Below are positions 14,431-64,000 of a stretch of DNA of 64,000 nucleotides, in pieces. The DNA lies in NCBI RefSeq assembly GCF_008831285.2, contig NC_045149.1, positions 18,677,035-18,741,034 on the forward strand, written 5' to 3'. The position numbers and the translations under genes were made by a program. Every line of letters starts with the position of its first letter. Position 1 is the stretch's first letter. The stretch is from Nymphaea colorata (lineage: Eukaryota; Streptophyta; Magnoliopsida; Nymphaeales; Nymphaeaceae). The notes under the pieces were generated by a model. That model was not told the DNA's origin. It ran no database searches and was given only the letters and a program-made list of their open reading frames with translations.

Positions 14431-14567
14431 GCCTTCCGTCCGTTCCTTCATCTTGCGGTTTCTAGGTTTCACGGGTGGCAGCCTCCCTGCGATTGATTCT
14501 TTCGTTCCTTCTTTTGTTTTGTTTTGATTATTGCTGCCTGCGTTTCCTTCTCCGTCGAGCTTGGGAA

Positions 14568-25007
<10,440 letters not shown>

Positions 25008-39256: not shown

Positions 39257-40165
39257 GTAAGTTTCCAACATGACGATTCATCTTTAGGAAAAAAAAAAAA
39301 AACATCTTCTTATTTGTAAAGCATGAAAAAAATGAGAGAGAGAGAGTCCATAATAACATAAAGAGTGGTAAAAGAAGTGAAAGAAAAACCAATAATATCA
39401 GTTTCAAGTATGGAAACACAAATCCACATTTGTAATCCATAAGGCCCGGGTTGACTGGCTCTGTGATTTGGTTGAAAGTGGTTATATGACACCAGCTCAT
39501 CTGCAATCATGCATGTCATGAAGGCTGAGCTAGAATTTTTTCATGAGGGGAACTGAATTAAAGTTTATAAATTTTGATTAGAGCTGAAATATCATTTTTC
39601 AAAATTTTTATGTAAAACAAGTGAAATTTTCTAAAATTTAGATGTAAGTTTTTGTAGTTGTTTTTTGGTCTGACAGATTTAAATAAAGCATTTGTGTTAG
39701 TTATATGATTTTGCTGTTTGTGTCCGTGCTTCCTGTTCGGTGATATATATTTTTTGGCTTGTTTTTTCATGTGACGTTGTGTAACATGACATAAATTGTG
39801 GGACTAATTTATTGCTTCCAATTACTAATCTGATTTTGAATCCATTTAGTTGGCCAATCTAGTGCCAACATTTGAATCCGAATACAAACTCCATTAACTG
39901 AATCCGGTAATTGAAAAGTTGATCAGACGTCTTTTAAAGCAACTCATCTGCTGCTTCAATTGGTGATTTGCCGAATAATAGCGTTTAGAGGCAATATAGT
40001 ATCTTGTCCATTTTCTCTCGGTGGATCCCTCGCTCATTGTTGTGGGAGGAGGAACAGGCGGTGGCCACTACTGCTCATTTATTAGGGCGTCCACCACGTT
40101 CGGTCCGTCCAGATATGGAAGGCCACTCTCCCTTTCCTTTTTATTTTTTACTTTTGTTTCTTAAT
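39257..40165. other. Intergenic
   Basis: No gene is seen. A phrase near 39520-39550 (ggctgagctagaattttttcatgagggg) resembles the outer end of the hAT MITE at 5837, but no second end or target duplication was found. A GA run lies near 39334-39346. Confidence 0.4.
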
Positions 40166-40262
40166 CAAGATTGATCGGTATTTATTGAGAAACAAGATTG
40201 ATCGGTATTTATTGAGAAACAAGATTGATCGGTAGTCGTTGGAAATCAAGATCGATCCGTAC
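40166..40262. repeat. Minisatellite, 27-bp period, ~3.6 copies
   Basis: Copies of caagattgatcggtatttat (continuing tgagaaa) start at 40166, 40193, 40220 and 40247. The first two are identical, the third diverges in its second half, and the fourth is partial and more diverged (caagatcgatccgta). Confidence 0.92.
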
Positions 40263-40302
40263 TGTGGCGGTTATCTTTTTTTTCCCGCCTTTTTTAAATT
40301 TC

Positions 40303-40870
40303 ATAAGCTTCGGTTCTCAGGCCCTAATCTGACTCTGTAAGGTGCACGCCCTGTTTTTCCTCCTCCTCCTGTTTCCTCTCTTTTTTCCTTGGGAGAGCTT
40401 TTTTCCGAGAGTCTCGTGTGGCGTTTTCCGGGATCGAAGGTTCGAAGAGGAAGACGAAGCATTAGGGTTTCAGTCAACCAAAATCACCCTCCAGCAGCAG
40501 GAAGTCCGGCTCCAATCCGTCGGAAACGCCGGTCTCTAGCCGACTGGGCCTGGGGTTCATCGAACGCCGCCGGATAAGGGTTTCACATATCTAGTAATTC
40601 TCCACGGGTTTCGACCTCGAGCCTGAGCAGGGGTTCCCTACTGCTCCACCTGCTCCTCCGCTTCCTCCGTTCTCCGTTTCACCCGCCTGCAGCCCCTCAG
40701 CTGGTGCTTTCGCCGGTGCGAAGCTACTGCAACTGCGCGGCCGCTTTCTAAGCTTCGGTTCTCGTCTCTCAGGCTGTAAGGTGCGCACCCTCTTTTTCCT
40801 CCTCCTTTGATATGTTTCTGTTTCCTCTGTTTTTTCCTTGCGAGATTTTTTTCTGAGAGTCCTGGCTTGA
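40303..40870 (+). repeat. Duplicated leader-like block, ~448 bp apart
   Basis: A ~120-bp block beginning taagcttcggttctc occurs near 40305 and again near 40752. Both copies contain ctgtaaggtgc, a cctcctcct pyrimidine run, tttcctct.ttttttcctt and gagagtc in the same order. Between them lies GC-rich sequence open in two frames. The texture is that of a 5' untranslated leader, so this may be a duplicated promoter or leader of a lost gene or element. Confidence 0.6.
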
Positions 40871-41972
40871 GTTTCCTTTTCGTTTCTTCTGTGAGTTTTA
40901 CCATGTTTTTCTTTTTGTATCTTATGTTGGGGAGTGATTTGGGCTCTTTTTTTTTCGAATAGTTAGGATTCTCGGTTCCCTTTCGTTATTTTGCTGATTT
41001 TTTTTGGGAGATGGAGGTCGCCGAGATTTCTCCTCTTCGGATGCTGTTGCTCTCGCAAATGGCTGCTTTCTTGGTGGAAGCTATCGCTGTAGAGGCGGTG
41101 CTCGTCGCCCAGAAGTCAGTTTACTTCTACCGGTAATTTCTTCTCCTTATCCTTTGTCCATCTGGTTTATTTATTTATTTATTTTACTTTTCTGCATGTT
41201 TATTTAGCTGCTGATTTTTGTTGCTAGGTTATGTAGGTTAAATTTTTAGTTTCTGGATTTTTTCTATGTGTTTCTGCTGAAGGGAAAAAATTACTTTACT
41301 TGGTGCAGAAAAAGGAAGTATTTTTTCAGCTTATTATTTCAGTTTTTTATTATTGAGAGTTTGAGATGCTTTTTGTTTATTCTTCTTCTTTCGTAGGGTT
41401 GGGAAATTGGGGATTCTTCCATTTCTGCAAGCAAAGTCCTTAATAAATGGGAAAGGTTTCGACCACGAGTCTTTGCTCAAGAATGGGGAACCCGTGGCGA
41501 TAATATGTCTTAGAATAATGTGGTCCAGTTTTATTTGTTTTGGATGATTTTTCTTTTTTCTGTTTTTCGTCGCTCTCTCTCTCTCTCTCTACTTTGACTT
41601 GTCTTTGAATTTCTGTTCGTGTCTGTTTTTCCTTACTTTGTTTGACTTGAAACATGGGCAATTTTTTTGATGTTGCTCTAGCCATATTAAGAGATGAAGG
41701 ATGGGCTTCAACGACTCGAACAACAGAAACCCCACCAATCATATATTTGCAGCCCATAAGATGCCTAATTTGGTTATCATAGATGATTCAAAGTTGAGAG
41801 ACCAATGCTCACCATGGTACGATGAACTTGGCAAGTACAAGTAAGCAGCTCAACAGCCAAAGCAGGGGCCATTGTCCCCCGCGTATGTACTTGTTACGCC
41901 TATGTTCCATGACTGCCATGTTCAGGTAACTACAGAATTTACCAGTCTTTATGAGTTCGCTTCTTCCTTAGT
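40871..41972 (+). other. Exon-like but unassigned sequence
   Basis: A stretch from an ATG at 41011 stays open to a CG/gtaatt donor at 41132, and a second stretch near 41763-41842 reads MPNLVIIDDSKLRD and ends at AAG/taagc. Both look exon-like, but I recognise neither, and they do not join into a known family. They may be parts of the decayed locus that includes the gamma-tubulin complex fragment further on, or chance. Confidence 0.25.
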
Positions 41973-42050: not shown

Positions 42051-44174
42051 GCCTTTGTAAGGTCACCTATTCTTTAGTTTGCTTCCTCTGCAAAACTGCT
42101 CTGATCAGTAAAACTCATAGAAATTTGTCTTACTCATTAGTGCCAAAGTGATAGCATACATGCATTTTACACAGTTGTTGATTTTATTTTGTTAAATCAA
42201 CTTGAATTCTTTTATAAATTGTTTCTTAATTACCAGTTGAGTGGGCACTTCTTAACTTACTTTGATTACCTTTTCCCCCGAAAGACCGCTTCAAAGGAAA
42301 ATATGAGCCTGAACCCTATTGCAAGCAGACGTAAAAATCTTTGGTTGATACCTCTTGATCAAGGGATGTGTATATATGCATATCTAAATAGTTTTAACTA
42401 GGAAATGGGTAGTGCCCACAACAATTAAAGTCTGATCAAGGCCTTCATGACAGCTATAGTGATCAGTCCTTATTGGTCTGTCTCATACTTCACCTTTATG
42501 CATTACTAGATGTCCCTACTTTTGCTCCATAAGCTCTTTCTCTACTGCATTTGAGAAATGAGGATTTTTTTCTTTTTTGCTATGAAATTTCTTATCATTT
42601 GTCAAATTGTAAGCTTAGTTCTCTTATGGTCTGATGACAAATTCCTGCTCCACCACTAGAGTTTTATGTGGTTCTTTTTGAAGCTGAACCTTTGTCTTTT
42701 TTTTTTTAAAAAAAAACTGAAATATACAGATGATGGAATAAGAACAGTTTAAAACCATTGCAACAACCTCTTTGTTGCTGGAGGATTTAGTTCATGCATC
42801 TGCATTATCTGTAGAGAGATGGTTTGAATTGGCAAGTGATGTACTTTCAGATCATGAGCCCCTTTACTTGCATATTGCAGTCTCTGTCACAGTTCCGATC
42901 TTCACACCATTTGCCTTTCATGTGTTCGCATCTCCTCAATATGCATTAAACTCTTGTCTAGATCCACTTTTGGGAAGAAGCCAACTGCTCAAGTGATGGG
43001 CTTGTTTTCTAGATGCTAAGGGGAGTGAGGTTATTAGCATGCAGATGAGGTGAGATGAAAACAGAAAATAGTTGCTTCGTAAGTGGGTTGCCTATCAGTT
43101 TTTAAATATTTGAATATGTACAATAGGTTTATTTACAAAATTCATTTTAGATGGTAAAGAATAACAGTAGGTTGGTCATGTTGCCCAAATAACTAATTGA
43201 ACTGTGGTCCAGCGGAGAGAGAGATGCCAAAAATAACAGTGAGTACACCAACAATCATCATGATAGAGACGAATCATTTCGAAGGGTCATAAAAAATAAA
43301 TTTATGTTCATTACCATCTAAAGCAGTTTTCAGGTTATCTGATAACACTTTAGAAGGCCATGGCAGTGGATATCATTTAGAACAAGAGACATTCATCAGC
43401 CAATTATGTAGGCACTTTTTCTTGAGCAGGCTATTTGATGGAAATATCCATTGTTGGCACCTAAGTCTATGGGAGGACTTGAATTGGCACAACGTAAAGT
43501 GGGTACTTCGTAACCACGGATGGAGACTGCTGGGGATATCTCACCTTCTGATTTCAAAGCATTGGGTTCTAGTGAAGTTAACTTTTAACAAAGAGAGGAG
43601 TTTAGCTGCAATTTTTATCAATATTGTGCTGATTGGTAAATTGATTATATATATTGATGATGTTTCTACATTCAACAGCCAAATGTTAAATATAATCACA
43701 TATTGTTTAAGAAAATGACATGATGTTCAGTTCAAATACATATATGAGCTTCAAAAACTAAATATTCTTCTTATCAAACAAATCATCATTTTTTGGAAGC
43801 TTGTATGTAAAGGTTCAGACTGGATTTGTTTATTTACCTGTGCATTTAGTTTGGGAAGGTTTGGTAACTAAGCTTGTGTGTTTTGACTGGTAAGGTGAAA
43901 AGTCTATCATCTAACTTTATCGCCTCTTCTTAGGTACTTGATTCTTTTTGGGTGCTAGGAATATTTGAAAATCGAGAATAGCTAAGTTGGTGGCATCTAT
44001 TCCTTAAATGTTAGGGCATGCATCTCCTGATGAGGAACATATATGATGTTTTTTCATGTACCTTTTTTAGTCATGATATGTGTAACTCACTTATTCTTGT
44101 TGTCTATAGCTAGAAATGGGTCTTTCAAACACTTACAGTAGTTAATCCGCGATTCACCTTTGTACATTTACCAG
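42051..44174. other. Degraded or intronic sequence, no gene assigned
   Basis: Several open stretches occur (for example 42772-42996 and 43422-43718 on the plus strand) without recognisable motifs. If the gamma-tubulin complex fragment downstream was once a whole gene, its earlier exons should lie here, but I could not find them, which suggests that the 5' part is missing. Confidence 0.35.
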
Positions 44175-45668
44175 GCTACCTTGTTAGGGCATCAAGTCAT
44201 GTATCGACAACTAGCAGCCTGGATGGTTCATGGACTTCTTCACGATCAATATGGAAATTTTTTTATTAGGAGGTATTGTTCTTTTCTGCAGACAGTTGAA
44301 CAATCACTAGGATTGACAGTTTTTCTTAGCCCGTCTTTCCAATTGCTCAACTGAAAACTGAACATTCAGCACCTTGTGTCAGCATCTTGGACTGTTTTTA
44401 CCAATTCGAAAATTGAAGTGCCTGATATGTAAGTGCATTTTGCATGCATCTTTGACAAACTGGAACTCAGGATTCCATGTTTTCTTGGTATATTTCCTCG
44501 AGCCTTCAGAGATGAAACATTGATTGGTGCATTGGACTGTTGGTTTTATACTCTTCAGTTGCAATTTGAAGTGTTGAAATTTCAAATCACGTGACAAAGG
44601 ACTTTTGATTATGTCTGTGCAAAATTTTGGTTTCCTGTCTGCTTTCTCGTCCCTTTGATGGGCATCTATCCTTTAAATTCTTAAATTATTCAGGCTTCTT
44701 AATTTTTACCTCTATTTCATTGACTTCTTAAGCAAGTCAATTGATATTGTCCATTATACTAAATATTGAAAAGACTTTGATTTCTCAAAGCAGCCAACCT
44801 TTGATGGTGATTGTTTCGGTTTTAACCTAGATACAAGAGAACAAATTTTTTCTTCAGATGGGCCATAACATTGAACCAGATTTGCTTTCTCGTTCAAACA
44901 CATATTTTTGTAATATTTTTCTGTTGTAGCTTATACCTATTTGACACATACATCAGGGGTTGTTTACCTCTTGAAGACTGTTCAGCTTGCCTACCTTTTG
45001 GAAATGGAAATGTTATATCTCTATTGCTATTTTGTTTGCTCTGGTGCGTCAGCTTGTTATATATGCCATGTCTTATGCAAGTATGCACCATGCTGCACAG
45101 TGCAGGTTGTGCGACCAGAATATTTCTATATGCAGTTTACTGCATCCATACTTTTCTCTGGGGAGGCAATAAGGGTTCTAAGGAACCCTTGCCCTGATTT
45201 CAGGTGTGAGGCTGATGTTTTTCATCATGGAGTTCCAAGAAGATCCAACAGATATCAATAATTGTTTGGATGCTTTCCTCAAGAAGAGCCTTGTATTGAT
45301 ATTAATTTGTTGGAGAAGAATTTCTCCCTCAATCTGAAGCGGATAAAATTGTTGGTATGCTTCAAGAATTAAAGGTACCCACCATCCATCTTTGTTTTCC
45401 TTCACTTGTTAGTATTGTTTGAATGCAACATGTTCTACTTAATATATTGTGAATTTAATATATTGTGAATTTATGTGTGAATTAAGCTTTATGATAGACA
45501 TATGAAAAAAGTTACTGTTTGCAATCTGTTGCTTTGCTTGCTTGTACTATTTTGCAACAAATTTCTCTGATTTTAGATATCTTGCATGAGTTTCCCGAGT
45601 TTGATAAGAGGTCATTCAAACATGCTGTTGACTCCATTCGCATGATAGCAGCTGGTCATCGTTGGCAG
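44175..45668 (+). pseudogene. Gamma-tubulin complex component 4 (GCP4) fragment, degenerate
   Basis: Three exon-like blocks match internal plant GCP4 sequence, as I recall the family, in the right order. Block 1 (44175-44272) reads GHQVMYRQLAAWMVHGLL, then QYGNFFIRR. Block 2 (45106-45374) includes RPEYFYMQFTASILFSG, AIRVLRNPCPDF and, later, EEFLPQSEADKIVGM. Block 3 (about 45590-45668) reads FDKRSFKHAVDSIRMIAAG. GCP4 is a core subunit of the gamma-tubulin ring complex that nucleates microtubules. This copy is broken: an in-frame TAA at 45259-45261, and a frame change near 45300-45318 separating CFPQEEPCIDINL from VGEEFLPQSEADK. The N-terminal exons, the exon between blocks 1 and 2, and everything C-terminal are not found. 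It is a partial duplicated copy, not a retrocopy, because intron-like sequence remains. Confidence 0.82.
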
Positions 45669-45820
45669 ATGGGGGCTGTTAGCAATATAATTGTGCACAC
45701 ACACATGCACTGACCGAGCTCATGAACAAGCTAGGGCTGTTCTTTTAACTGTTCATTTTCCTCCCACTCTAGCTCATGAAATTATTACATAATTAAGTGG
45801 GGGGTTGAGACAATATTAAG

Positions 45821-46497
45821 GGGGTGTTTGGATGACACCCTCTTAAAACCAGGTTATAAGGAAACCAGGTATTGTTAAACTTCGCTTTCTAAACCAGGTT
45901 GTAAACCTGGTTTGTCAGTTTGGATGACAATAAGAAACCAAGTTTTTACCTTCTAAACATGGCATTTGTTTGGATGAAAAAAACCTGGTTTTATATGAAG
46001 CCTCTAGAATTCAAAGTTCAGTTGAATGTTATATACAACTAAATGATAGTTGAACAAATAAAATCACCCATTATACCACCACTAGGCATCTAGATTTTAA
46101 GATTACCTTTGACTATAGTTCCTTGCTCAAATTCTCCTTAGAGCAGGGTTGATTTATAAATTTCTATCGAACTGATCATTAGGATCCTTCGATAAACCTA
46201 ATGACCAAGCACATTTATAACTACCTCAATTATTATAAAATGCATAATGATTTCATTTATGCTACTAGTTGGAAATAAGAGGATCCATGAATAGAGAACT
46301 TGTAGTATATTTACAATTAAGTAATTAACCCACGTTTAAAAATGCTAACCAAGTCCATAGATTTTTCTAAGTGTAGACATAAAACTGTACCAAACCTGCC
46401 CCTAGGGTGAAAAATATGGGGGAGCGGGTTTTTTGAACCAGGTTTTGAGAAAAACTGAGGTTCTTAAAAATCCAGTTTATTGTCATCCAAACACCCC
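45821..46497. mobile_element. MITE with perfect 17-bp terminal inverted repeats
   Basis: ggggtgtttggatgaca at 45821-45837 is exactly inverted as tgtcatccaaacacccc at 46481-46497, bounding a 677-bp non-coding AT-rich segment. The subterminal sequences (aaccaggttataagg, aaccaggtttt) also echo each other. GGGGTGTTTGG-type ends are common among plant PIF/Harbinger- and hAT-like MITEs; no clear target duplication was found, so the superfamily is left open. Confidence 0.8.
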
Positions 46498-46675
46498 AAA
46501 AATAGGGTTTCCAGGCAAAATGAGGTTTTGCATCTCAAAACTCCATTTTGGGGTGTCAACCAAACACAACGTCAGTTTGGGAACAATATGAAAATTTACA
46601 TGATTCCTCATTTCAAGAACGTGGGGCATATTCAAGGCAATCAATGATGGCCCTCTTATCAAAGTCTTGTTTCCA
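46498..46675. mobile_element. Second MITE-like terminus beside the first
   Basis: At about 46550-46570, ggggtgtcaaccaaacacaa is a diverged version of the inverted end tgtcatccaaacacccc, including the reversed gtgtttgg.tgacacccc core. It appears to be the end of a related, older or truncated element adjoining or enclosing the 45821 one. Confidence 0.45.
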
Positions 46676-46795
46676 AGGCCCAAGGCCAACATCTAAACCG
46701 GATCAAGCTAAACATCTGATCAAGACCCGTCATGCAAAAGTGAAATCTAACATCCAAACCAGATGAGATTACACCCTTGATCCAAATGCCAAATT
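46676..46795. repeat. Two orphan ~60-bp satellite subrepeats outside the array
   Basis: Segments at about 46690-46740 and 46741-46790 contain aacatctaaaccggatcaag, catctgatcaagacccgtca, tgcaaaagtg and aacatccaaaccagatgaga. These match the subrepeat consensus within the 878-bp satellite (aacatctaaacc.gatcag, gtctgatc.a.cccgtgatgcaaaagt) but are more diverged. They lie just before the first full unit. Confidence 0.75.
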
Positions 46796-46807
46796 AAAAA
46801 TCCAGTT

Positions 46808-49800
46808 TGTTAGAATGTTTAAAAGTCTGCCACCATCATGTCAAGGGTTGGTTTAGGAATTTAGATTTTGCCGAAAAGCTAAATCCAACATTTAGACCAA
46901 ACTAGATTCGACCTTCGATCGACACCTTGCATGTAATACTGGAATCCAACATCTAAAACCGATCAGGTTAGACGTCTGATCGAACCCCTGTTTTCAAAGG
47001 CCAATTCCAACTTGTAAACCAGATCAGATTAGACCTCTAATCTAGAGCCGTGATGCAAAAGTCAAACCATACTACTTAACCAGATTTGAGTTATGCTTGC
47101 GATTCAACATCCAAATCCAACATTTGAAGCGGAGCGTATTAGGCCTGTTTTTTGGATCGTTGATATGAAACCGAAATCCAACAACTAAGCGAGGCCAAAT
47201 TAGATGTTTGATACAAATTGTAAATCTCTAATCCGAATTCAACACCAAATCCGGGTCAGAACAGACCTCTGATCCTACTCAGTTCATGTAAGATCAAATG
47301 TAAATTTGGTCGTTCATCGGAATACCTATCTGATTATTTTTCATGGCCGCCAAATCTTGGATCATGGCTATGAGGTTATCTTGTGATTTGATAAGTGTTG
47401 GTTGTATGATCGTCGGTTTGGGAAGTCGCTTGCAGATAGTTTTGGAAAAGAAGGTGTAAATTATATGAGTAATTTTTGGTGTACAATGATTTTTTGTTCA
47501 GTGCTGCCGAGAGGATTGTTTTGTCGAAGATTAAGACATGCAACTGGTAGAAAGTTAACTTTGATATCCCCATCAAAGGAGCTTGTATTGAAGATTTCAT
47601 ATTTGATATATGTCTACGTGGGGAAATTGGAATCATTATCTTTGCACATAGATACGTTTTCATTACAATGTCCTACTTGATTGTTTGTTGGGATGTTTAA
47701 AAGTCTGCCAACATCGTGTCAATGGATGGTTTAGGAATACAGATTTTGCCGAAAAGCTAAATCCAACATTTAGACCAAACTAGATTCGACCTTCGATCGA
47801 CACCTTGCATGTAATACTGAAATCCAACATGTTAAACCGATCAGGTTAGACGTCTGATCAAACCCCTGTTTTCAAAGGCCAATTCCAACTTGTAAACCAG
47901 ATCAGATTAGACCTCTGATCTAGAGCCGTGATGCAAAAGTCAAACCATACTACTTAACCGGGTTTGAGTTATGCTTGTGATTCAACATCCAAATCCAACA
48001 TTTGAAGCGTAGCGTATTAGGCCTGTTTTTTGGATCGTTGATATGAAACCGAAATCCAACAACTAAGCGAGGCCAAATTTGATGTTTGATACAAATTGTA
48101 AATCTCTAGTCCGAATTGAACACCAAATCCGGGTCAGAACAGACCTCTGATCCTACTCACTTCATGTAAGATCAAATGTAAATTTGGTCGTTCATCGGAA
48201 TACCTATCTGATTATTTTTCATGGCCGCCAAATCTTGGATCATGGCTATGAGGTTATCTTGTGATTTGATAAGTGTTGGTTGTATGATCGTCGGTTTGGG
48301 AAGTCGCTTGCGGATAGTTTTGGAAGAGAAGGTGTAAATTATATGAGTAATTTTTGGTGTACAATGATTTTTTGTTCATTGCTGCCGAGAGGATTGTTTT
48401 GTCGAAGATTAAGACATGCAGCTGGTAGAAAGTTAACTTTGATATCCCCGTCAAAGGAGCTTGTATTGAAGATTTCATATTTGATATATGTCTACGTGGG
48501 GAAATTGGAATCATTATCTTTGCACATAGATACGATTTCATTACAATGTCCTACTTGATTGTTTGTTGGGATGTTTAAAAGTCTGCCAACATCGTGTCAA
48601 TGGATGGTTTAGGAATACAGATTTTGCCGAAAAGCTAAATCCAACATTTAGACCAAACTAGATTCGACCTTCGATCGACACCTTGCATGTAATACTGAAA
48701 TCCAACATGTTAAACCGATCAGGTTAGACGTCTGATCAAACCCCTATTTTCAAAGGCCAATTCCAACTTGTAAACCAGATCAGATTAGACCTCTGATCTA
48801 GAGCCGTGATGCAAAAGTCAAACCATACTACTTAACCAGGTTTGAGTTATGCTTGTGATTCAACATCCAAATCCAACATTTGAAGCGTAGCGTATTAGGC
48901 CTGTTTTTTGGATCGTTGATATGAAACCGAAATCCAACAACTAAGCGAGGCCAAATTAGATGTTTGATACAAATTGTAAATCTCTAGTCCGAATTCAACA
49001 CCAAATCCGGGTCAGAAGAGACCTCTCATCCTACTCAGTTCATGTAAGATCAAATGTAAATTTGGTCGTTCATCGGAATACCTATCTGATTATTTTTCAT
49101 GGCCGCCAAATCTTGGATCATGGCTATGAGGTTATCTTGTGATTTGATAAGTGTTGGTTGTATGATCGTCGGTTTGGGAAGTCGCTTGCGGATAGTTTTG
49201 GAAAAGAAGGTGTAAATTATATGAGTAATTTTTGGTGTACAATGATTTTTTGTTCAGTGCTGCCGAGAGGATTGTTTTGTCGAAGATTAAGACATGCAGC
49301 TGGTAGAAAGTTAACTTTGATATCCCCGTCAAAGGAGCTTGTATTGAAGATTTCATATTTGATATATGTCTACGTGGGGAAATTGGAATCATTATCTTTG
49401 CACATAGATACGTTTTCATTACAATGTCCTACTTGATTGTTTGTTGGGATGTTTAAAAGTCTGCCAACATCGTGTCAATGGATGGTTTAGGAATACAGAT
49501 TTTGCCGAAAAGCTAAATCCAACATTTAGACCAAACTAGTTTCGACCTTCGATCGACACCTTGCATGTAATACTGAAATCCAACATGTTAAACCGATCAG
49601 GTTAGACGTCTGATCAAACCCCTGTTTTCAAAGGCCAATTCCAACTTGTAAACCAGATCAGATTAGACCTCTGATCTAGAGCCGTGATGCAAAAGTCAAA
49701 CCATACTACTTAACCAGGTTTGAGTTATGCTTGTGATTCAACATCCAAATCCAACATTTGAAGCGTAGCGTATTAGGCCTGTTTTTTGGATCGTTGATAT

Positions 49801-52800
49801 GAAACTGAAATCCAACAACTAAGCGAGGCCAAATTAGATGTTTGATACAAATTGTAAATCTCTAGTCCGAATTCAACACCAAATCCGGGTCAGAAGAGAC
49901 CTCTGATCCTACTCAGTTCATGTAAGATCAAATGTAAATTTGGTCGTTCATCGGAATACCTATCTGATTATTTTTCATGGCCGCCAAATCTTGGATCATG
50001 GCTATGAGGTTATCTTGTGATTTGATAAGTGTTGGTTGTATGATCGTCGGTTTGGGAAGTCGCTTGCAGATAGTTTTGGAAAAGAAGGTGTAAATTATAT
50101 GAGTAATTTTTGGTGTACAATGATTTTTTGTTCAGTGCTGCCGAGAGGATTGTTTTGTCGAAGATTAAGACATGCAGCTGGTAGAAAGTTAACTTTGATA
50201 TCCCCATCAAAGGAGCTTGTATTGAAGATTTCATATTTGATATATGTCTACGTGGGGAAATTGGAATCATTATCTTTGCACATAGATACGTTTTCATTAC
50301 AATGTCCTACTTGATTGTTTGTTGGGATGTTTAAAAGTCTGCCAACATCGTGTCAATGGATTGTTTAGGAATACAGATTTTGCCGAAAAGCTAAATCCAA
50401 CATTTAGACCAAACTAGATTCGACCTTCGATCGACACCTTGCATGTAATACTGAAATCCAACATGTTAAACCGATCAGGTTAGACGTCTGATCAAACCCC
50501 TGTTTTCAAAGGCCAATTCCAACTTGTAAACCAGATCAGATTAGACCTCTGATCTAGAGCCGTGATGCAAAAGTCAAACCATACTACTTAACCGGGTTTG
50601 AGTTATGCTTGTGATTCAACATCCAAATCCAACATTTGAAGCGTAGCGTATTAGGCCTGTTTTTTGGATCGTTGATATGAAACCGAAATCCAACAACTAA
50701 GCGAGGCCAAATTTGATGTTTGATACAAATTGTAAATCTCTAGTCCGAATTCAACACCAAATCCGGGTCAGAACAGACCTCTGATCCTACTCAGTTCATG
50801 TAAGATCAAATGTAAATTTGGTCGTTCATCGGAATACCTATCTGATTATTTTTCATGGCCGCCAAATCTTGGATCATGGCTATGAGGTTATCTTGTGATT
50901 TGATAAGTGTTGGTTGTATGATCGTCGGTTTGGGAAGTCGCTTGCAGATAGTTTTGGAACAGAAGGTGTAAATTATATGAGTAATTTTTGGTGTACAATG
51001 ATTTTTTGTTCAGTGCTGCCGAGAGGATTGTTTTGTCGAAGATTAAGACATGCAGCTGGTAGAAAGTTAACTTTGATATCCCCATCAAAGGAGCTTGTAT
51101 TGAAGATTTCATATTTGATATATGTCTACGTGGGGAAATTGGAATCATTATCTTTGCACATAGATACGTTTTCATTACAATGTCCTACTTGATTGTTTGT
51201 TGGGATGTTTAAAAGTCTGCCAACATCGTGTCAATGGATGGTTTAGGAATACAGATTTTGCCGAAAAGCTAAATCCAACATTTAGACCAAACTAGATTCG
51301 ACCTTCGATCGACACCTTGCATGTAATACTGAAATCCAACATGTTAAACCGATCAGGTTAGACGTCTGATCAAACCCCTGTTTTCAAAGGCCAATTCCAA
51401 CTTGTAAACCAGATCAGATTAGACCTCTGATCTAGAGCCGTGATGCAAAAGTCAAACCATACTACTTAACCGGGTTTGAGTTATGCTTGTGATTCAACAT
51501 CCAAATCCAACATTTGAAGCGTAGCGTATTAGGCCTGTTTTTTGGATCGTTGATATGAAACCGAAATCCAACAACTAAGCGAGGCCAAATTTGATGTTTG
51601 ATACAAATTGTAAATCTCTAGTCCGAATTCAACACCAAATCCGGGTCAGAACAGACCTCTGATCCTACTCACTTCATGTAAGATCAAATGTAAATTTGGT
51701 CGTTCATCGGAATACCTATCTGATTATTTTTCATGGCCGCCAAATCTTGGATCATGGCTATGAGGTTATCTTGTGATTTGATAAGTGTTGGTTGTATGAT
51801 CGTCGGTTTGGGAAGTCGCTTGCGGATAGTTTTGGAAAAGAAGGTGTAAATTATATGAGTAATTTTTGGTGTACAATGATTTTTTGTTCAGTGCTGCCGA
51901 GAGGATTGTTTTGTCGAAGATTAAGACATGCAGCTGGTAGAAAGTTAACTTTGATATCCCCGTCAAAGGAGCTTGTATTGAAGATTTCATATTTGATATA
52001 TGTCTACGTGGGAAAATTGGAATCATTATCTTTGCACATAGATACGTTTTCATTACAATGTCCTACTTGATTGTTTGTTGGGATGTTTAAAAGTCTGCCA
52101 ACATCGTGTCAATGGATGGTTTAGGAATACAGATTTTGCCGAAAAGCTAAATCCAACATTTAGACCAAACTAGATTCAACCTTCGATCGACACCTTGCAT
52201 GTAATACTGAAATCCAACAAGTTAAACCGATCAGGTTAGACGTCTGATCAAACCCCTGTTTTCAAAGGCCAGTTCCAACTTGTAAACCAGATCAGATTAG
52301 ACCTCTGATCTAGAGCCGTGATGCAAAAGTCAAACCATACTACTTAACCAGGTTTGAGTTATGCTTGTGATTCAACATCCAAATCCAACATTTGAAGCGG
52401 AGCGTATTAGGCCTGTTTTTTGGATCGTTGATATGAAACCGAAATCCAACAACTAAGCGAGGCCAAATTAGATGTTTGATACAAATTGTAAATCTCTAGT
52501 CCGAATTCAACACCAAATCCGGGTCAGAAGAGACCTCTGATCCTACTCAGTTCATGTAAGATCAAATGTAAATTTGGTCGTTCATCGGAATACCTATCTG
52601 ATTATTTTTCATGGCCGCCAAATCTTGGATCATGGCTATGAGGTTATCTTGTGATTTGATAAGTGTTGGTTGTATGATCGTCGGTTTGGGAAGTCGCTTG
52701 CGGATAGTTTTGGAAAAGAAGGTGTAAATTATATGAGTAATTTTTGGTGTACAATGATTTTTTGTTCAGTGCTGCCGAGAGGATTGTTTTGTCGAAGATT

Positions 52801-55800
52801 AAGACATGCAGCTGGTAGAAAGTTAACTTTGATATCCCCATCAAAGGAGCTTGTATTGAAGATTTCATATTTGATATATGTCTACGTGGGGAAATTGGAA
52901 TCATTATCTTTGCACATAGATACGTTTTCATTACAATGTCCTACTTGATTGTTTGTTGGGATGTTTAAAAGTCTGCCAACATCGTGTCAATGGATGGTTT
53001 AGGAATACAGATTTTGCCGAAAAGCTAAATCCAACATTTAGACCAAACTAGTTTCGACCTTCGATCGACACCTTGCATGTAATACTGAAATCCAACATGT
53101 TAAACCGATCAGGTTAGACGTCTGATCAAACCCCTGTTTTCAAAGGCCAATTCCAACTTGTAACCAGATCAGATTAGACCTCTGATCTAGAGCCGTGATG
53201 CAAAAGTCAAACCATACTACTTAACCAGGTTTGAGTTATGCTTGTGATTCAACATCCAAATCCAACATTTGAAGCGTAGCGTATTAGGCCTGTTTTTTGG
53301 ATCGTTGATATGAAACCGAAATCCAACAACTAAGCGAGGCCAAATTAGATGTTTGATACAAATTGTAAATCTCTAGTCCGAATTCAACACCAAATCCGGG
53401 TCAGAAGAGACCTCTGATCCTACTCAGTTCATGTAAGATCAAATGTAAATTTGGTCGTTCATCGGAATACCTATCTGATTATTTTTCATGGCCGCCAAAT
53501 CTTGGATCATGGCTATGAGGTTATCTTGTGATTTGATAAGTGTTGGTTGTATGATCGTCGGTTTGGGAAGTCGCTTGCGGATAGTTTTGGAAAAGAAGGT
53601 GTAAATTATATGAGTAATTTTTGGTGTACAATGATTTTTTGTTCAGTGCTGCCGAGAGGATTGTTTTGTCGAAGATTAAGACATGCAGCTGGTAGAAAGT
53701 TAACTTTGATATCCCCATCAAAGGAGCTTGTATTGAAGATTTCATATTTGATATATGTCTACGTGGGGAAATTGGAATCATTATCTTTGCACATAGATAC
53801 GTTTTCATTACAATGTCCTACTTGATTGTTTGTTGGGATGTTTAAAAGTCTGCCAACATCGTGTCAATGGATGGTTTAGGAATACAGATTTTGCCGAAAA
53901 GCTAAATCCAACATTTAGACCAAACTAGATTCGACCTTCGATCGACACCTTGCATGTAATACTGAAATCCAACATGTTAAACCGATCAGGTTAGACGTCT
54001 GATCAAACCCCTGTTTTCAAAGGCCAATTCCAACTTGTAAACCAGATCAGATTAGACCTCTGATCTAGAGCCGTGATGCAAAAGTCAAACCATACTACTT
54101 AACCGGGTTTGAGTTATGCTTGTGATTCAACATCCAAATCCAACATTTGAAGCGTAGCGTATTAGGCCTGTTTTTTGGATCGTTGATATGAAACCGAAAT
54201 CCAACAACTAAGCGAGGCCAAATTTGATGTTTGATACAAATTGTAAAACTCTAGTCCGAATTCAACACCAAATCCGGGTCAGAAGAGACCTCTGATCCTA
54301 CTCACTTCATGTAAGATCAAATGTAAATTTGGTCGTTCATCGGAATACCTATCTGATTATTTTTCATGGCCGCCAAATCATGGATCATGGCTATGAGGTT
54401 ATCTTGTGATTTGATAAGTGTTGGTTGCATGATCGTCAGTTTGGGAAGTCGCTTGCGGATAGTTTTGGAAGAGAAGGTGTAAATTATATGAGTAATTTTT
54501 GGTGTACAATGATTTTTTGTTCAGTGCTGCCGAGAGGATTGTTTTGTCGAAGATTAAGACATGCAGCTGGTAGAAAGTTAACTTTGATATCCCCGTCAAA
54601 GGAGCTTGTATTGAAGATTTCATATTTGATATATGTCTACGTGGGGAAATTGGAATCATTATCTTTGCACATAGATACGTTTTCATTACAATGTCCTACT
54701 TGATTGTTTGTTGGGATATTTAAAAGTCTGCCAACATCGTGTCAATGGATGGTTTAGGAATACAGATTTTGCCGAAAAGCTAAATCCAACATTTAGACCA
54801 AACTAGTTTCGACCTTCGATCGACACCTTGCATGTAATACTGAAATCCAACATGTTAAACCGATCAGGTTAGACGTCTGATCAAACCCCTGTTTTCAAAG
54901 GCCAATTCCAACTTGTAAACCAGATCAGATTAGACCTCTGATCTAGAGCCGTGATGCAAAAGTCAAACCATACTACTTAACCAGGTTTGAGTTATGCTTG
55001 TGATTCAACATCCAAATCCAACATTTGAAGCGTAGCGTATTAGGCCTGTTTTTTGGATCGTTGATATGAAACCGAAATCCAACAACTAAGCGAGGCCAAA
55101 TTAGATGTTTGATACAAATTGTAAATCTCTAGTCCGAATTCAACACCAAATCCGGGTCAGAAGAGACCTCTGATTCTACTCAGTTCATGTAAGATCAAAT
55201 GTAAATTTGGTCGTTCATCGGAATACCTATCTGATTATTTTTCATGGCCGCCAAATCTTGGATCATGGCTATGAGGTTATCTTGTGATTTGATAAGTGTT
55301 GGTTGTATGATCGTCGGTTTGGGAAGTCGCTTGCGGATAGTTTTGGAAAAGAAGGTGTAAATTATATGAGTAATTTTTGGTGTACAATGATTTTTTGTTC
55401 AGTGCTGCCGAGAGGATTGTTTTGTCGAAGATTAAGACATGCAGCTGGTAGAAAGTTAACTTTGATATCCCCATCAAAGGAGCTTGTATTGAAGATTTCA
55501 TATTTGATATATGTCTACGTGGGGAAATTGGAATCATTATCTTTGCACATAGATACGTTTTCATTACAATGTCCTACTTGATTGTTTGTTGGGATGTTTA
55601 AAAGTCTGCCAACATCGTGTCAATGGATGGTTTAGGAATACAGATTTTGCCGAAAAGCTAAATCCAACATTTAGACCAAACTAGATTCGACCTTCGATCG
55701 ACACCTTGCATGTAATACTGAAATCCAACATGTTAAACCGATCAGGTTAGACGTCTGATCAAACCCCTGTTTTCAAAGGCCAATTCCAACTTGTAAACCA

Positions 55801-58800
55801 GATCAGATTAGACCTCTGATCTAGAGCCGTGATGCAAAAGTCAAACCATACTACTTAACCAGGTTTGAGTTATGCTTGTGATTCAACATCCAAATCCAAC
55901 ATTTGAAGCGGAGCGTATTAGGCCTGTTTTTTGGATCGTTGATATGAAACCGAAATCCAACAACTAAGCGAGGCCAAATTAGATGTTTGATACAAATTGT
56001 AAATCTCTAGTCCGAATTCAACACCAAATCCGGGTCAGAACAGACCTCTGATCCTACTCACTTCATGTAAGATCAAATGTAAATTTGGTCGTTCATCGGA
56101 ATACCTATCTGATTATTTTTCATGGCCGCCAAGTTTTGGATCATGGCTATGAGGTTATCTTGTGATTTGATAAGTGTTGGTTGTATGATCGTCGGTTTGA
56201 GAAGTCGCTTGCGGATAGTTTTGGAAAAGAAGGTGTAAATTATATGAGTAATTTTTGGTGTACAATGATTTTTTGTTCAGTGCTGCCGAGAGGATTGTTT
56301 TGTCGAAGATTAAGACATGCAGCTGGTAGAAAGTTGACTTTGATATCCCCGTCAAAGGAGCTTGTATTGAAGATTTCATATTTGATATATGTCTACGTGG
56401 GGAAATTGGAATCATTATCTTTGCACATAGATACGTTTTCATTACAATGTCCTACTTGATTGTTTGTTGGGATGTTTAAAAGTCTGCCAACATCGTGTCA
56501 ATGGATGGTTTAGGAATACAGATTTTGCCGAAAAGCTAAATCCAACATTTAGACCAAACTAGATTCGACCTTCGATCGACACCTTGCATGTAATACTGAA
56601 ATCCAACATGTTAAACCGATCAGGTTAGACGTCTGATCAAACCCCTGTTTTCAAAGGCCAATTCCAACTTGTAAACCTGATCAGATTAGACCTCTGATCT
56701 AGAGCCGTGATGCAAAAGTCAAACCATACTACTTAAACAGGTTTGAGTTATGCTTGTGATTCAACATCCAAATCCAACATTTGAAGCGGAGCGTATTAGG
56801 CCTGTTTTTTGGATCGTTGATATGAAACCGAAATCCAACAACTAAGCGAGGCCAAATTAGATGTTTGATACAAATTGTAACTCTCTAGTCCGAATTCAAC
56901 ACCAAATCCGGGTCAGAAGAGACCTCTGATCCTACTCACTTCATGTAAGATCAAATGTAAATTTGGTCGTTCATCGGAATACCTATCTGATTATTTTTCA
57001 TGGCCGCCAAATCTTGGATCATGGCTATGAGGTTATCTTGTGATTTGATAAGTGTTGGTTGTATGATCGTCGGTTTGGGAAGTTGCTTGCGGATAGTTTT
57101 GGAAAAGAAGGTGTAAATTATATGAGTAATTTTTGGTGTACAATGATTTTTTGTTCATTGCTGCCGAGAGGATTGTTTTGTCGAAGATTAAGACATGCAG
57201 CTGGTAGAAAGTTAACTTTGATATCCCCATCAAAGGAGCTTGTATTGAAGATTTCATATTTGATATATGTCTACGTGGGGAAATTGGAATCATTATCTTT
57301 GCACATAGATACGTTTTCATTACAATGTCCTACTTGATTGTTTGTTGGGATGTTTAAAAGTCTGCCAACATCGTGTCAATGGATGGTTTAGGAATACAGA
57401 TTTTGCCGAAAAGCTAAATCCAACATTTAGACCAAACTAGATTCGACCTTCGATCGACACCTTGCATGTAATACTGAAATCCAACATGTTAAACCGATCA
57501 GGTTAGACGTCTGATCAAACCCCTGTTGTCAAAGGCCAATTCCAACATGTAAACCAGATCAGATTAGACCTCTGATCTAGAGCCGTGATGCAAAAGTCAA
57601 ACCATACTACTTAACCAGGTTTGAGTTATGCTTGTGATTCAACATCCAAATCCAACATTTGAAGCGTAGCGTATTAGGCCTGTTTTTTGGATCGTTGATA
57701 TGAAACCGAAATCCAACAACTAAGCGAGGCCAAATTAGATGTTTGATACAAATTGTAAATCTCTAGTCCGAATTCAACACCAAATCCGGGTCAGAAGAGA
57801 CCTCTGATCCTACTCAGTTCATGTAAGATCAAATGTAAATTTGGTCGTTCATCGGAATACCTATCTGATTATTTTTCATGGCCGCCAAATCTTGGATCAT
57901 GGCTATGAGGTTATCTTGTGATTTGATAAGTGTTGGTTGTATGATCGTCGGTTTGGGAAGTCGCTTGCGGATAGTTTTGGAAAAGAAGGTGTAAATTATA
58001 TGAGTAATTTTTGGTGTACAATGATTTTTTGTTCAGTGCTGCCGAGAGGATTGTTTTGTCGAAGATTAAGACATGCAGCTGGTAGAAAGTTAACTTTGAT
58101 ATCCCCATCAAAGGAGCTTGTATTGAAGATTTCATATTTGATATATGTCTACGTGGGGAAATTGGAATCATTATCTTTGCACATAGATACGTTTTCATTA
58201 CAATGTCCTACTTGATTGTTTGTTGGGATGTTTAAAAGTCTGCCAACATCGTGTCAATGGATGGTTTAGGAATACAGATTTTGCCGAAAAGCTAAATCCA
58301 ACATTTAGACCAAACTAGATTCGACCTTCGATCGACACCTTGCATGTAATACTGAAATCCAACATGTTAAACCGATCAGGTTAGACGTCTGATCAAACCC
58401 CTGTTTTCAAAGGCCAATTCCAACTTGTAAACCAGATCAGATTAGACCTCTGATCTAGAGCCGTGATGCAAAAGTCAAACCATACTACTTAACCGGGTTT
58501 GAGTTATGCTTGTGATTCAACATCCAAATCCAACATTTGAAGCGGAGCGTATTAGGCCTGTTTTTTGGATCGTTGATATGAAACCGAAACCCAACAACTA
58601 AGCGAGGCCAAGTTTGATGTTTGATACAAATTGTAAATCTCTAGTCCGAATTCAACACCAAATCCGGGTCAGAACAGACCTCTGATCCTACTCACTTCAT
58701 GTAAGATCAAATGTAAATTTGGTCGTTCATCGGAATACCTATCTGATTATTTTTCATGGCCGCCAAATCTTGGATCATGGCTATGAGGTTATCTTGTGAT

Positions 58801-61800
58801 TTGATAAGTGTTGGTTGTATGATCGTCGGTTTGGGAAGTCGCTTGCGGATAGTTTTGGAAAAGAAGGTGTAAATTATATGAGTAATTTTTGGTGTACAAT
58901 GATTTTTTGTTCAGTGCTGCCGAGAGGATTGTTTTGTCGAAGATTAAGACATGCAGCTGGTAGAAAGTTAACTTTGATATCCCCGTCAAAGGAGCTTGTA
59001 TTGAAGATTTCATATTTGATATATGTCTACGTGGGGAAATTGGAATCATTATCTTTGCACATAGATACGTTTTCATTACAATGTCCTACTTGATTGTTTG
59101 TTGGGATGTTTAAAAGTCTGCCAACATCGTGTCAATGGATGGTTTAGGAGTACTGATTTTGCCGAAAAGCTAAATCCAACATTTAGACCAAACTAGATTC
59201 GACCTTCGATCGACACCTTGCATGTAATACTGAAATCCAACATGTTAAACCGATCAGGTTAGACGTCTGATCCAACCCCCGTTTTCAAAGGCCAATTCGA
59301 ACTTGTAAACCAGATCAGATTAGATCTCTGATCTAGAGCCGTGATGCAAAAGTCAAACCATACTACTTAACCAGGTTTGAGTTATGCTTGTGATTCAACA
59401 TCCAAATCCAACATTTGAAGCGGAGCGTATTAGGCCTGTTTTTTGGATCGTTGATATGAAACCGAAATCCAACAACTAAGCGAGGCCAAATTAGATGTTT
59501 GATACAAATTGTAAATCTCTAGTCCGAATTCAACACCAAATCCGGGTCAGAAGAGACCTCTGATCCTACTCAGTTCATGTAAGATCAAATGTAAATTTGG
59601 TCGTTCATCGGAATACCTATCTGATTATTTTTCATGGCCGCCAAATCTTGGATCATGGCTATGAGGTTATCTTGTGATTTGATAAGTGTTGGTTGTATGA
59701 TCGTCGGTTTGGGAAGTCGCTTGCGGATAGTTTTGGAAAAGAATGTGTAAATTATATGAGTAATTTTTGGTGTACAATGATTTTTTGTTCAGTGCTGCCG
59801 AGAGGATTGTTTTGTCGAAGATTAAGACATGCAGCTGGTAGAAAGTTAACTTTGATATCCCCGTCAAAGGAGCTTGTATTGAAGATTTCATATTTGATAT
59901 ATGTCTACGTGGGGAAATTGGAATCATTATCTTTGCACATAGATACGTTTTCATTACAATGTCCTACTTGATTGTTTGTTGGGATGTTTAAAAGTCTGCC
60001 AACATCGTGTCAATGGATGGTTTAGGAGTACTGATTTTGCCGAAAAGCTAAATCCAAAATGTAGACCAAACTAGATTCGACCTTTGATCGACACCTTGTA
60101 TGTAATACTGAAATCCAACATGTTAAACCGATCAGGTTAGACGTCTGATCAAACCCCTGTTTTCAAAGGCCAATTCCAACTTGTAAACCAGATCAGATTA
60201 GACCTCTGATCTAGAGCCGTGATGCAAAAGTCAAACCATACTACTTAACCAAGTTTGAGTTATGCTTGTGATTCAACATCCAAATCCAACATTTGAAGCG
60301 GAGCGTATTAGGCCTGTTTTTTGGATCGTTGATATGAAACCGAAATCCAACAACTAAGCGAGGCCAAATTAGATGTTTGATACAAATTGTAAATCTCTAG
60401 TCCGAATTCAACACCAAATCCGGGTCAGAAGAGACCTTTGATCCTACTCACTTCATGTAAGATCAAATGTAAATTTGGTCGTTCATCGGAATACCTATCT
60501 GATTATTTTTCATGGCCGCCAAATCTTGGATCATGGCTATGAGGTTATCTTGTGATTTGATAAGTGTTGGTTGTATGATCGTCGGTTTGGGAAGTCGCTT
60601 GCGGATAGTTTTGGAAAAGAAGGTGTAAATTATATGAGTAATTTTTGGTGTACAATGATTTTTTGTTCAGTGCTGCCGAGAGGATTGTTTCGTCGAAGAT
60701 TAAGACATGCAGCTGGTAGAAAGTTAACTTTGATATCCCCATCAAAGGAGCTTGTATTGAAGATTTCATATTTGATATATGTCTACGTGGGGAAATTGGA
60801 ATCGTTATCTTTGCACATCGATACGTTTTCATTACAATGTCCTACTTGATTGTTTGTTGGGATGTTTAAAAGCCTGCCAACATCGTGTCAATGGATGGTT
60901 TGGGAGTACTGATTTTGCCGAACAGCTAAATCCAACATTTAGACCAAACTAGATTCGACCTTCGATCGACACCTTGCATGTAATACTGAAATCCAACATG
61001 TTAAACCGATCAGGTTAGACGTCTGATCAAACCCCCGTTTTCAAAGGCCAATTCCAACTTGTAAACCAGATCAGATTAGATCTCTGATCTAGAGCCGTGA
61101 TGCAAAAGTCAAACCATACTACTTAACCAGGTTTGAGTTATGCTTGTGATTCAACATCCAAATCCAACATTTGAAGCGGAGCGTATTAGGCCTGTTTTTT
61201 GGATCGTTGATATGAAACCGAAATCCAACAACTAAGCGAGGCCAAATTAGATGTTTGATACAAATTGTAAATCTCTAGTCCGAATTCAACACCAAATCCG
61301 GGTCAGAAGAGACCTTTGATCCTACTCACTTCATGTAAGATCAAATGTAAATTTGGTCGTTCATCGGAATACCTATCTGATTATTTTTCATGGCCGCCAA
61401 ATCTTGGATCATGGCTATGAGGTTATCTTGTGATTTGATAAGTGTTGGTTGTATGATCGTCGGTTTGGGAAGTCGCTTGCGGATAGTTTTGGAAAAGAAG
61501 GTGTAAATTATATGAGTAATTTTTGGTGTACAATGATTTTTTGTTCAGTGCTGCCGAGAGGATTGTTTCGTCGAAGATTAAGACATGCAGCTGGTAGAAA
61601 GTTAACTTTGATATCCCCATCAAAGGAGCTTGTATTGAAGATTTCATATTTGATATATGTCTACGTGGGGAAATTGGAATCATTATCTTTGCACATCGAT
61701 ACGTTTTCATTACAATGTCCTACTTGATTGTTTGTTGGGATGTTTAAAAGCCTGCCAACATCGTGTCAATGGATGGTTTGGGAGTACTGATTTTGCCGAA

Positions 61801-64000
61801 CAGCTAAATCCAACATTTAGACCAAACTAGATTCGACCTTCGATCGACACCTTGCATGTAATACTGAAATCCAACATGTTAAACCGATCAGGTTAGACGT
61901 CTGATCAAACCCCCGTTTTCAAAGGCCAATTCCAACTTGTAAACCAGATCAGATTAGATCTCTGATCTAGAGCCGTGATGCAAAAGTCAAACCATACTAC
62001 TTAACCAGGTTTGAGTTATGCTTGTGATTCAACATCCAAATCCAACATTTGAAGCGGAGCGTATTAGGCCTGTTTTTTGGATCGTTGATATGAAACCGAA
62101 ATCCAACAACTAAGCGAGGCCAAATTAGATGTTTGATACAAATTGTAAATCTCTAGTCCGAATTCAACACCAAATCCGGGTCAGAAGAGACCTCTGATCC
62201 TACTCACTTCATGTAAGATCAAATGTAAATTTTGTCGTTCATCGGAATACCTATCTGATTATTTTTCATGGCCGCCAAATCTTGGATCATGGCTATGAGG
62301 TTATCTTGTGATTTGATAAGTGTTGGTTGTATGATCGTCGGTTTGGGAAGTCGCTTGCGGATAGTTTTGGAAAAGAAGGTGTAAATTATATGAGTAATTT
62401 TTGGTGTACAATGATTTTTTGTTCAGTGCTGCCGAGAGGATTGTTTTGTCGAAGATTAAGACATGCAGCTGGTAGAAAGTTAACTTTGATATCCCCATCA
62501 AAGGAGCTTGTATTGAAGATTTCATATTTGATATATGTCTACGTGGGGAAATTGGAATCATTATCTTTGCACATAGATACGTTTTCATTACAATGTCCTA
62601 CTTGATTGTTTGTTGGGATGTTTAAAAGTCTGCCAACATCGTGTCAATGGATGGTTTAGGAATACAGATTTTGCCGAAAAGCTAAATCCAACATTTAGAC
62701 CAAACTAGATTCGACCTTCTATCGACACCTTGCATGTAATACTGAAATCCAACATGTTAAACCGATCAGGTTAGACGTCTGATCAAACCCCTGTTTTCAA
62801 AGGCCAATTCCAACTTGTAAACCAGATCAGATTAGACCTCTGATCTAGAGCCGTGATGCAAAAGTCAAACCATACTACTTAACCGGGTTTGAGTTATGCT
62901 TGTTATTCAACATCCAAATCCAACATTTGAAGCGGAGCGTATTAGGCCTGTTTTTTGGATCGTTGATATGAAACCGAAACCCAACAACTAAGCGAGGCCA
63001 AGTTTGATGTTTGATACAAATTGTAAATCTCTAGTCCGAATTCAACACCAAATCCGGGTCAGAACAGACCTCTGATCCTACTCACTTCATGTAAGATCAA
63101 ATGTAAATTTGGTCGTTTATCGGAATACCTATATGATTATTTTTCATGGCCGCCAAATCTTGGATCATGGCTATGAGGTTATCTTGTGATTTGATAAGTG
63201 TTGGTTGTATGATCGTCGGTTTGGGAAGTCGCTTGCGGATAGTTTTGGAAAAGAAGGTGTAAATTATATGAGTAATTTTTGGTGTACAATGATTTTTTGT
63301 TCAGTGCTGCCGAGAGGATTGTTTTGTCGAAGATTAAGACATGCAGCTGGTAGAAAGTTAACTTTGATATCCCCGTCAAAGGAGCTTGTATTGAAGATTT
63401 CATATTTGATATATGTCTACGTGGGGAAATTGGAATCATTATCTTTGCACATAGATACGTTTTCATTACAATGTCCTACTTGATTGTTTGTTGGGATGTT
63501 TAAAAGTCTGCCAACATCGTGTCAATGGATGGTTTAGGAATACTGATTTTGCCGAAAAGCTAAATCCAACATTTAGACCAAACTATATTCGACCTTCGAT
63601 CGACACCTTGCATGTAATAATGAAATCCAACATGTTAAACCGATCAGGTTAGACGTCTGATCAAACCCCTGTTTTCAAAGGCCAATTCCAACTTGTAAAC
63701 CAGATCAGATTAGACCTCTGATCTAGAGCCGTGATGCAAAAGTCAAACCATACTACTTAACCAGGTTTGAGTTATGCTTGTGATTCAACATCCAAATCCA
63801 ACATTTGAAGCGGAGCGTATTAGGCCTGTTTTTTGGATCGTTGATATGAAACCGAAATCCAACAACTAAGCGAGGCCAAATTAGATGTTTGATACAAATT
63901 GTCAATCTCTAGTCCGAATTCAACACCAAATCCGTGTCAGAACAGACTTCTGATCCTACTCACTTCATGTAAGATCAAATGTAAATTTGGTCGTTCATCG
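46808..64000. repeat. 878-bp satellite tandem array, 19 full units plus one partial
   Basis: Using gtttaaaag as a reference point, units start at 46817, 47695, 48573, 49451, 50329, 51207, 52085, 52963, 53840, 54718, 55596, 56474, 57352, 58230, 59108, 59986, 60864, 61742, 62620 and 63498 (cut by the window end). All are 878 bp except the unit at 52963, which is 877 because one A is missing near 53163. All units run in the same orientation. By eye the units differ at only a few percent of positions; the first unit is the most aberrant in its opening bases, as expected at an array edge. In unit one, 46877-47290 is built of about seven diverged ~60-bp subrepeats and 47290-47694 is non-repetitive. 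No transposon termini, telomere repeats or rRNA sequence are seen. Confidence 0.97.
47376..47663 (-). other. Open frame within each satellite unit (95 codons, minus)
   Basis: In the non-repetitive half of every complete unit the minus strand carries an ATG-initiated 95-codon frame beginning MKTYLCAKIM (MKSYLCAK in the second unit). It is present 19 times at 878-bp spacing with no frameshift or stop. It overlaps a 92-codon open frame on the opposite strand that has no ATG at its beginning; its first ATG is at codon 22. I recognise no domain in either. Very recent homogenisation would preserve any frame, so coding status is unproven and I would not annotate a gene. Confidence 0.3.

Follow-up and report, generated by a model that had tools for sequence, protein, structure and literature searches.

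The stretch of DNA described here, called the window, comprises 64,000 nucleotides of Nymphaea colorata (assembly GCF_008831285.2, contig NC_045149.1, here C12, positions 18677035-18741034) and lies 18.7 Mb into this 23.0-Mb sequence; the genome totals 407.8 Mb, distributed over 783 contigs. Its right part is occupied by a tandem array with a unit of 878 bp, and the sequence to the left of the array is in part derived from the gene of gamma-tubulin complex component 4 (GCP4). The first-pass annotation had described nineteen complete head-to-tail units plus a partial one with a left boundary at 46808, and this observation is confirmed. In a self-comparison of positions 46001-64000 the best shift was 878 with an identity of 91.6%, flank included, and from 47001 on the identity at this shift was at least 95% per 200 bp except for 52201-53200, where one unit of 877 bp shifts the register. 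Twenty unit starts from 46817 to 63498 could be anchored, yielding 19 full units and a partial one of 503 bp at the window edge. Eighteen full units measure 878 bp and the one at 52963 has 877 bp; the first matching base found with blastn was 46805, 3 bp to the left of the annotated boundary. The array is absent from the output of Tandem Repeats Finder (TRF) because the longest period allowed in this run was 500. The 19 full units differ by 1.4% on average in pairwise comparison, and unit 1 at the edge is the most diverged of them, with 18 changes from the consensus versus 4-11 for the others.

With the adjoining 30 kb added, the array was found to end at window coordinate 74464, about 10.5 kb past the window, and both ends are thus resolved. 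The whole array amounts to about 26 units across 27.7 kb, with 22.9 kb of the repeat itself, and hardly deserves to be called large as it had been at first. One unit beyond the window is split by a long terminal repeat (LTR) retrotransposon of about 4.8 kb (C12:18742590-18747384), which we guess to be of the Copia type. Its terminal repeats are identical over 257 bases, so the insertion is young, and it is bordered by a 5-bp target-site duplication, AGATT. Units to the right of the retrotransposon are more diverged, differing by 6.7% among four.

The 878-bp unit contains about seven degenerate sub-repeats of 61 bp (Table 1), one of which is reduced to about 49 bp. Strong alignments (E below 1e-13) were obtained for the first three and weak ones (E 0.02-0.2) for the others, and no clear internal repeat was seen in the remaining 450 bp or so. 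A protein-coding unit was rejected, since 878 is not divisible by three, all six frames contain stops, and four open reading frames tested of the 15 listed for one unit had no Pfam match above cut-off; one of the four gave three sub-threshold hits with a best E value of 0.0092. No Rfam family reached the gathering score in the 64-kb window, where a single sub-threshold hit lies left of the array. A structured RNA was rejected on this basis. The same search gave no sign of a link to ribosomal DNA, although an origin from its intergenic spacer was not searched directly. A CENP-B box was likewise discarded, none being present in the unit consensus, and a simple higher-order structure was rejected as no lag was clearly better. 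Unequal constraint on the two halves of the unit was not upheld either (36 versus 26 variable sites, p 0.25); the imbalance looked greater in a count to which unit 1 and the partial unit contributed. The array has the attributes of satellite DNA, namely homogenised head-to-tail units which are non-coding.

Its left junction had been regarded as one with single-copy DNA, which does not hold: the flanks consist of degenerate repeat, an insert resembling a miniature inverted-repeat transposable element (MITE), and a GCP4 pseudogene segment present in multiple copies. An older diverged copy of part of the unit immediately precedes the array (local score 123; 200 shuffles reached 44 at most). The sharp left edge therefore marks where homogenisation stops within a repeat region of greater age. 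The same older left copy is present in C7 (46576-46804, 86%), one of the related loci introduced below. The motif GTTTGTT is common to the unit end and the left junction, as judged by eye. The MITE-like insert is partly present in the loci C7, C1b, and C1c, and the matching stretch of C8 is without it. Still further left, 39881-40860 is shared with C1b in pieces of 74-86% and 40624-40994 with C9 at 89%.

Exon-like frames at 44.2-45.7 kb led to the identification of GCP4. Positions 44142-44351 retrieved five GCP4 and one Spc98 sequences from PDB (E 3e-08); the twelve Pumilio/PUF-type sequences obtained in the same search, from E 6e-05, are taken as chance or low-complexity matches. The exon remnant 45498-45710 had no PDB match up to an E value of 10. 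In Pfam, 44187-44273 matched GCP_N_terminal with 23 bits, below the cut-off of 29.4, and two other pieces gave nothing. A GCP4 gene was located on C10 at 21.713-21.727 Mb using a plant protein as query. Judged from its sequence this gene is apparently intact, as 11 of 12 translated exon blocks are open and the twelfth, which was cut across an apparent intron, has stops. The part of the window given in Table 1 matches positions 2897-6082 of the C10 gene, and beyond the array the coordinates 74519-77109, past the window, match gene positions 8082-15556, likewise with gaps and with one piece inverted. Five of eleven exon blocks searched were found in order on the plus strand of the C12 copy and one more inverted, and in-frame stops and a frameshift appear in the copy when it is set against the translated C10 exons. 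Its exons and introns being collinear with the gene and disabled by such changes, the copy is a GCP4 pseudogene. An array in the intron of a working gene had also been considered, and this was dropped once the stops, the frameshift, and the C10 gene had been found. A GCP4 intron as the source of the unit was rejected too, because the C10 gene contains no 878-type unit (blastn at 1e-6; best nhmmer E 0.35). C8, C7, C9, and C12 lack the gene stretch 6083-7560, one exon included, and have the array-bearing segment in its place; in C12 the GCP4 sequence resumes only at gene position 8082. As a separate observation, eleven further places on C362, C11, C8, C15, and C4 show matches to a single GCP4 exon region (residues ~629-686 of the query, 55-58% identity, a stop in 10 of the 11) and apparently represent another dispersed GCP4-derived family.

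A search of the genome with the DNA of 45100-45900 yielded 39 matches. Besides the C10 gene, twelve loci match the GCP4 part, located on C1, C3, C7, C8, C9, C10, C11, C12, and C14; C3:21.65 Mb adds short matches, and most of the others cover just the MITE-like end. Eleven of the twelve loci were examined, all except C8:15383920, and in seven of these (C12, C7, C1b, C8, C10p, C9p, and C1d) a related array is found at the same point of GCP4, with units of quite different length (Table 1). The left GCP4 homology ends at gene positions 6082-6088 in six of the seven by blastn against the gene, and the break in C7 was tied in through C12. On the right GCP4 resumes at 7561-7584 in C7, C8, and C9, and at 12376 in C1b. 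Genome-wide totals of the repeat are lower bounds, since the first unit search was incomplete by its own output and missed C10p; the C12 site alone accounts for the 22.9 kb given above. Further related arrays were noted in passing. C1:14142197-14175859 (L023-L026) holds a large one with units of about 1.92-2.09 kb and a 61-bp sub-periodicity, containing a run of 100 N and no GCP4 match, whose lower end was not reached. C315 (L020, L031) carries an 878-bp-type array which starts right at the end of the contig and is broken up by some 5 kb, the end of which resembles another LTR element by eye. C12b (C12:14.55 Mb, L027) and C657 (L028) agree to about 97-98% across several kb; both have related units, next to which another tandem repeat of about 1.5 kb is found, and they are possibly a duplicate or an alternative haplotype.

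The degree of homogenisation was compared for 51 nhmmer matches of at least 600 bp with E up to 1e-10; this set excludes C8, C12b, C657, and C1a, which have none of that length, and C10p. Units within a site differ on average by 1.7% in C12 (21 units), 3.5% in C1b (10), and 5.3% in C315 (9), and units of different sites by means of 18-25%. A FastTree phylogeny joined the units by site in C12 (25 of 25, support 0.85), C1b (10 of 10, 1.0), and C315 (9 of 9, 1.0). Those of C7 were not joined: six of its units differ from each other by 23%, as much as units from separate sites do, an indication that tandem copies predate the spread of the segment. Within the C12 array 47 of 210 site pairs failed the four-gamete test, the minimum number of recombination events (Rm) being 5, and similarity was higher between units lying closer together (Mantel r 0.31, p 0.004, units 2-19); both results support exchange between units. 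For the GCP4 flank a tree was calculated on gene positions 5614-6088 with C7 left out. The flank differs by 8-10% among C12, C1b, C10p, C9p, and C1c2, and by 14-17% when C8 or C1d is compared to those five, a split with a support of 0.998 and little resolution elsewhere. C12 and C1b, the only homogenised pair with both measures, differ by 24% in their units and by 9% in their flanks. This contrast would be explained if the units of the ancestral array had already diverged and different ones became fixed at the two sites.

The C9 array, at about 13.79-13.81 Mb, follows a different register. TRF found 31.3 and 46.4 copies of a 173-bp unit with 96% matches in the two stretches read, and 76 excised monomers differ by 3.5% on average. 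The monomer matches positions 95-256 of the 878-bp unit at 83%, and the array edge keeps pieces of unit positions 675-849, hence an earlier array of the long unit is likely to have been present there. GCP4 sequence flanks the C9 array on both sides; its far end would lie in the roughly 8 kb between the array sequence read and the downstream stretch.

Taken together, these data make it very probable that the C12 array is a locally amplified, non-coding repeat of the satellite type which grew inside a decayed, dispersed copy of GCP4. The seed would have been a 61-bp minisatellite in the dispersed pseudogene segment, of which about seven sub-repeats together with some 450 bp may have been duplicated, perhaps at the 7-bp match GTTTGTT. 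At each site the array could then have grown and become uniform independently of the others, through unequal exchange and gene conversion among its units; the register of the unit would have been fixed by chance, and the array would have no function for its host. Several findings weigh against this account. In four of the eleven copies no array was seen in the stretch fetched after the GCP4 match (about 5.7 kb for C1c2 and at most 3.4 kb for C14, C11, and C3). Two of them, C1c2 and C14, share the break near gene position 6082, so the break alone does not imply an array; the C11 copy runs past it to gene position 6178 at 73%, and the fetched C3 stretch matched none of the reference sequences used. 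Conversely, related repeats in C1a, C12b, C657, C315, and C1c have no GCP4 visible beside them, and the seed may therefore predate the GCP4 copy. The period signal of C8 is weak and the C7 units are irregular. In the flank tree the node of C8 and C1d has a support of 0.17 and nodes within the crown 0.70-0.78, and the order of the unit lengths is accordingly not resolved. Finally, the divergence along the unit is uneven (p 0.001 for the variance among 60-bp windows; p 0.09 for the lowest 40-bp window), which leaves room for weak constraint; gene conversion among the sub-repeats would explain it as well. A more far-reaching version, in which one minisatellite seed served as a nursery from which paralogous sites independently made arrays of 61, 173, ~880, ~1090, and possibly ~2000 bp, the nucleosome-sized 173-bp form becoming or already being a major chromosomal satellite of the species, appears quite improbable at present.

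An array created by the assembly process is very hard to reconcile with the data. Beyond the general difficulty of tandem repeats nothing speaks for such an artefact, while 16 of the 19 units carry private variants and none of the 153 pairs of units 2-19 is identical, which makes copying unlikely; the LTR retrotransposon with its target-site duplication splits one unit, and no N occurs in the 54 kb read around the array. Scarcely any more credit can be given to the captured edge of a classical large centromeric or subtelomeric satellite, to which the homogenised head-to-tail arrangement and the long unit would conform, as the units are so few and GCP4 pseudogene sequence closes both sides. Neither of two telomeric 14-mers is present in the window, and this, together with the position of the site in the C12 sequence, speaks against the subtelomeric location offered in the first-pass annotation; the interstitial one among its proposals is supported, and its interpretation as a whole holds in part.

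Two further explanations invoke mobility. The array might belong to a large non-autonomous transposable element such as a Helitron, which captured a GCP4 segment and spread by transposition rather than by segmental duplication. This is a serious possibility, if one we would not favour: the matching loci are distributed over nine sequences of the assembly, sequence unrelated to GCP4 is shared beyond common GCP4 breakpoints (on the left near gene position 2897 in C12 and C1c2, on the right near 15556 in C12, C7, and C1b), and tandem repeats are known to be carried by oyster Helentrons (PMC7492417). The copies are, however, 8-17% apart with many deletions, and inspection by eye of the limits shared by C12 and C1b revealed no terminal motif or target-site duplication; genes for a transposase or helicase were not systematically searched. 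Somewhat unlikely is a mobile array-bearing element which inserted into a GCP4 copy and into unrelated sites, GCP4 being only one host. It would account for C12b and C657, which lack GCP4 matches and yet have an upstream segment in common with C8 (72-79%); in C8 this segment sits between the GCP4 break and the array. These two loci are 98% alike over 3.7 kb and therefore count as one case, C1a has no match to this segment, GCP4 flank and array are shared together by C12, C7, C1b, and C8, and no ends or target-site duplication of such an element were found.

Elsewhere in the window, an open frame of 592 amino acids at 8397-10175 on the minus strand resembles a pentatricopeptide-repeat protein, and an exon at 17885-18301 on the plus strand may belong to a glyceraldehyde-3-phosphate dehydrogenase. 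A separate 130-bp tandem repeat occupies 21448-21828 with 2.9 copies. Feature coordinates are collected in Table 1.

Table 1. Features of the window and arrays at the paralogous GCP4 copies (positions are those of the window).
Feature	Position	Strand	Unit	Remarks
Further left shared segment	39881..40994			Common to C1b and C9 copies
5' part of decayed GCP4 copy	43793..45689	+		Collinear with gaps to C10 gene, 83-85%
GCP4 exon remnants	44187-44273; 45049-45374; 45582-45671	+		Second with stop and frameshift
MITE-like insert	45821..46570			Ends GGGGTGTTTGGATGAC / GTCAACCAAACACAAC; limits approximate, by eye
Older diverged copy of unit positions 134-307	46627..46801	+		Left of homogenised array
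Homogenised tandem array	46805..64000	+	878 bp	19 full units from 46817 + 503 bp; continues to C12:18751498
Degenerate sub-repeats in unit 1	46882..47297	+	61 bp	Unit positions 66-481, ~seven copies
C12 array			878 bp	Homogenised
C7 array			Irregular, 878-bp type	Not homogenised
C1b array			880 bp	10 units of 600 bp or more
C10p array			848-891 bp	Range of complete units
C8 array			~1087 bp	Weak period signal
C9p array			173 bp	At least 77 copies
C1d array			61 bp	32.8 copies, 65% match

How satellites are born and how the length of their unit is chosen are open questions, as most satellites are met long after their birth. In this genome related repeats occupy homologous positions of pseudogene copies, whose flanks permit a partial ordering. 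The courses taken differ, with no array in the part read in C1c2 and C14, an unhomogenised one in C7, a long homogenised unit in C12 and C1b, and in C9 a 173-bp unit with pieces of the longer unit at the edge. Seeding, choice of register, and homogenisation thus become comparable within one genome, which makes these loci a useful case for the study of satellite birth. By the titles of the top literature matches, no earlier description of an 878-bp satellite was found, and a search for gamma-tubulin complex, pseudogene, and satellite gave nothing pertinent by title. Among the literature matches listed, no satellite family was seen whose unit length varies between paralogous pseudogene sites.

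A period of 878 bp had been considered long for a plant satellite. According to PMC5895790, Vicia faba has 17 satellite families with monomers of 687-2033 bp; the satellites studied there each account for 0.008-2.7% of the genome, and the long ones are mostly pericentromeric. The unit found here falls into this length class, whereas its array at the C12 site amounts to 22.9 kb. Parallels in mode of origin are offered by the maize tandem repeats CRM1TR and CRM4TR, which according to PMC3648361 were born in an older repeated element, form distinct variants at two loci, and were inferred to undergo gene conversion. Their parent is the LTR or untranslated region of a retrotransposon, whereas in Nymphaea colorata the host is an intron-bearing GCP4 pseudogene segment, and the differing unit length among sister copies is a feature of the present loci unlike CRM1TR and CRM4TR. 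Satellites derived from Ogre elements in Lathyrus sativus are similar in that short arrays inside a dispersed element have grown at a subset of its sites; in PMC7004042 the parent is an LTR retrotransposon and expansion took place mainly in primary constrictions, two traits not observed here. The Cg_HINE Helentrons of the Pacific oyster also resemble the arrangement found here, with satellite-like arrays central in dispersed non-autonomous elements and shared flanks (PMC7492417), but no Helentron ends were recognised at the GCP4 copies, and the flanks of these are partly gene-derived.

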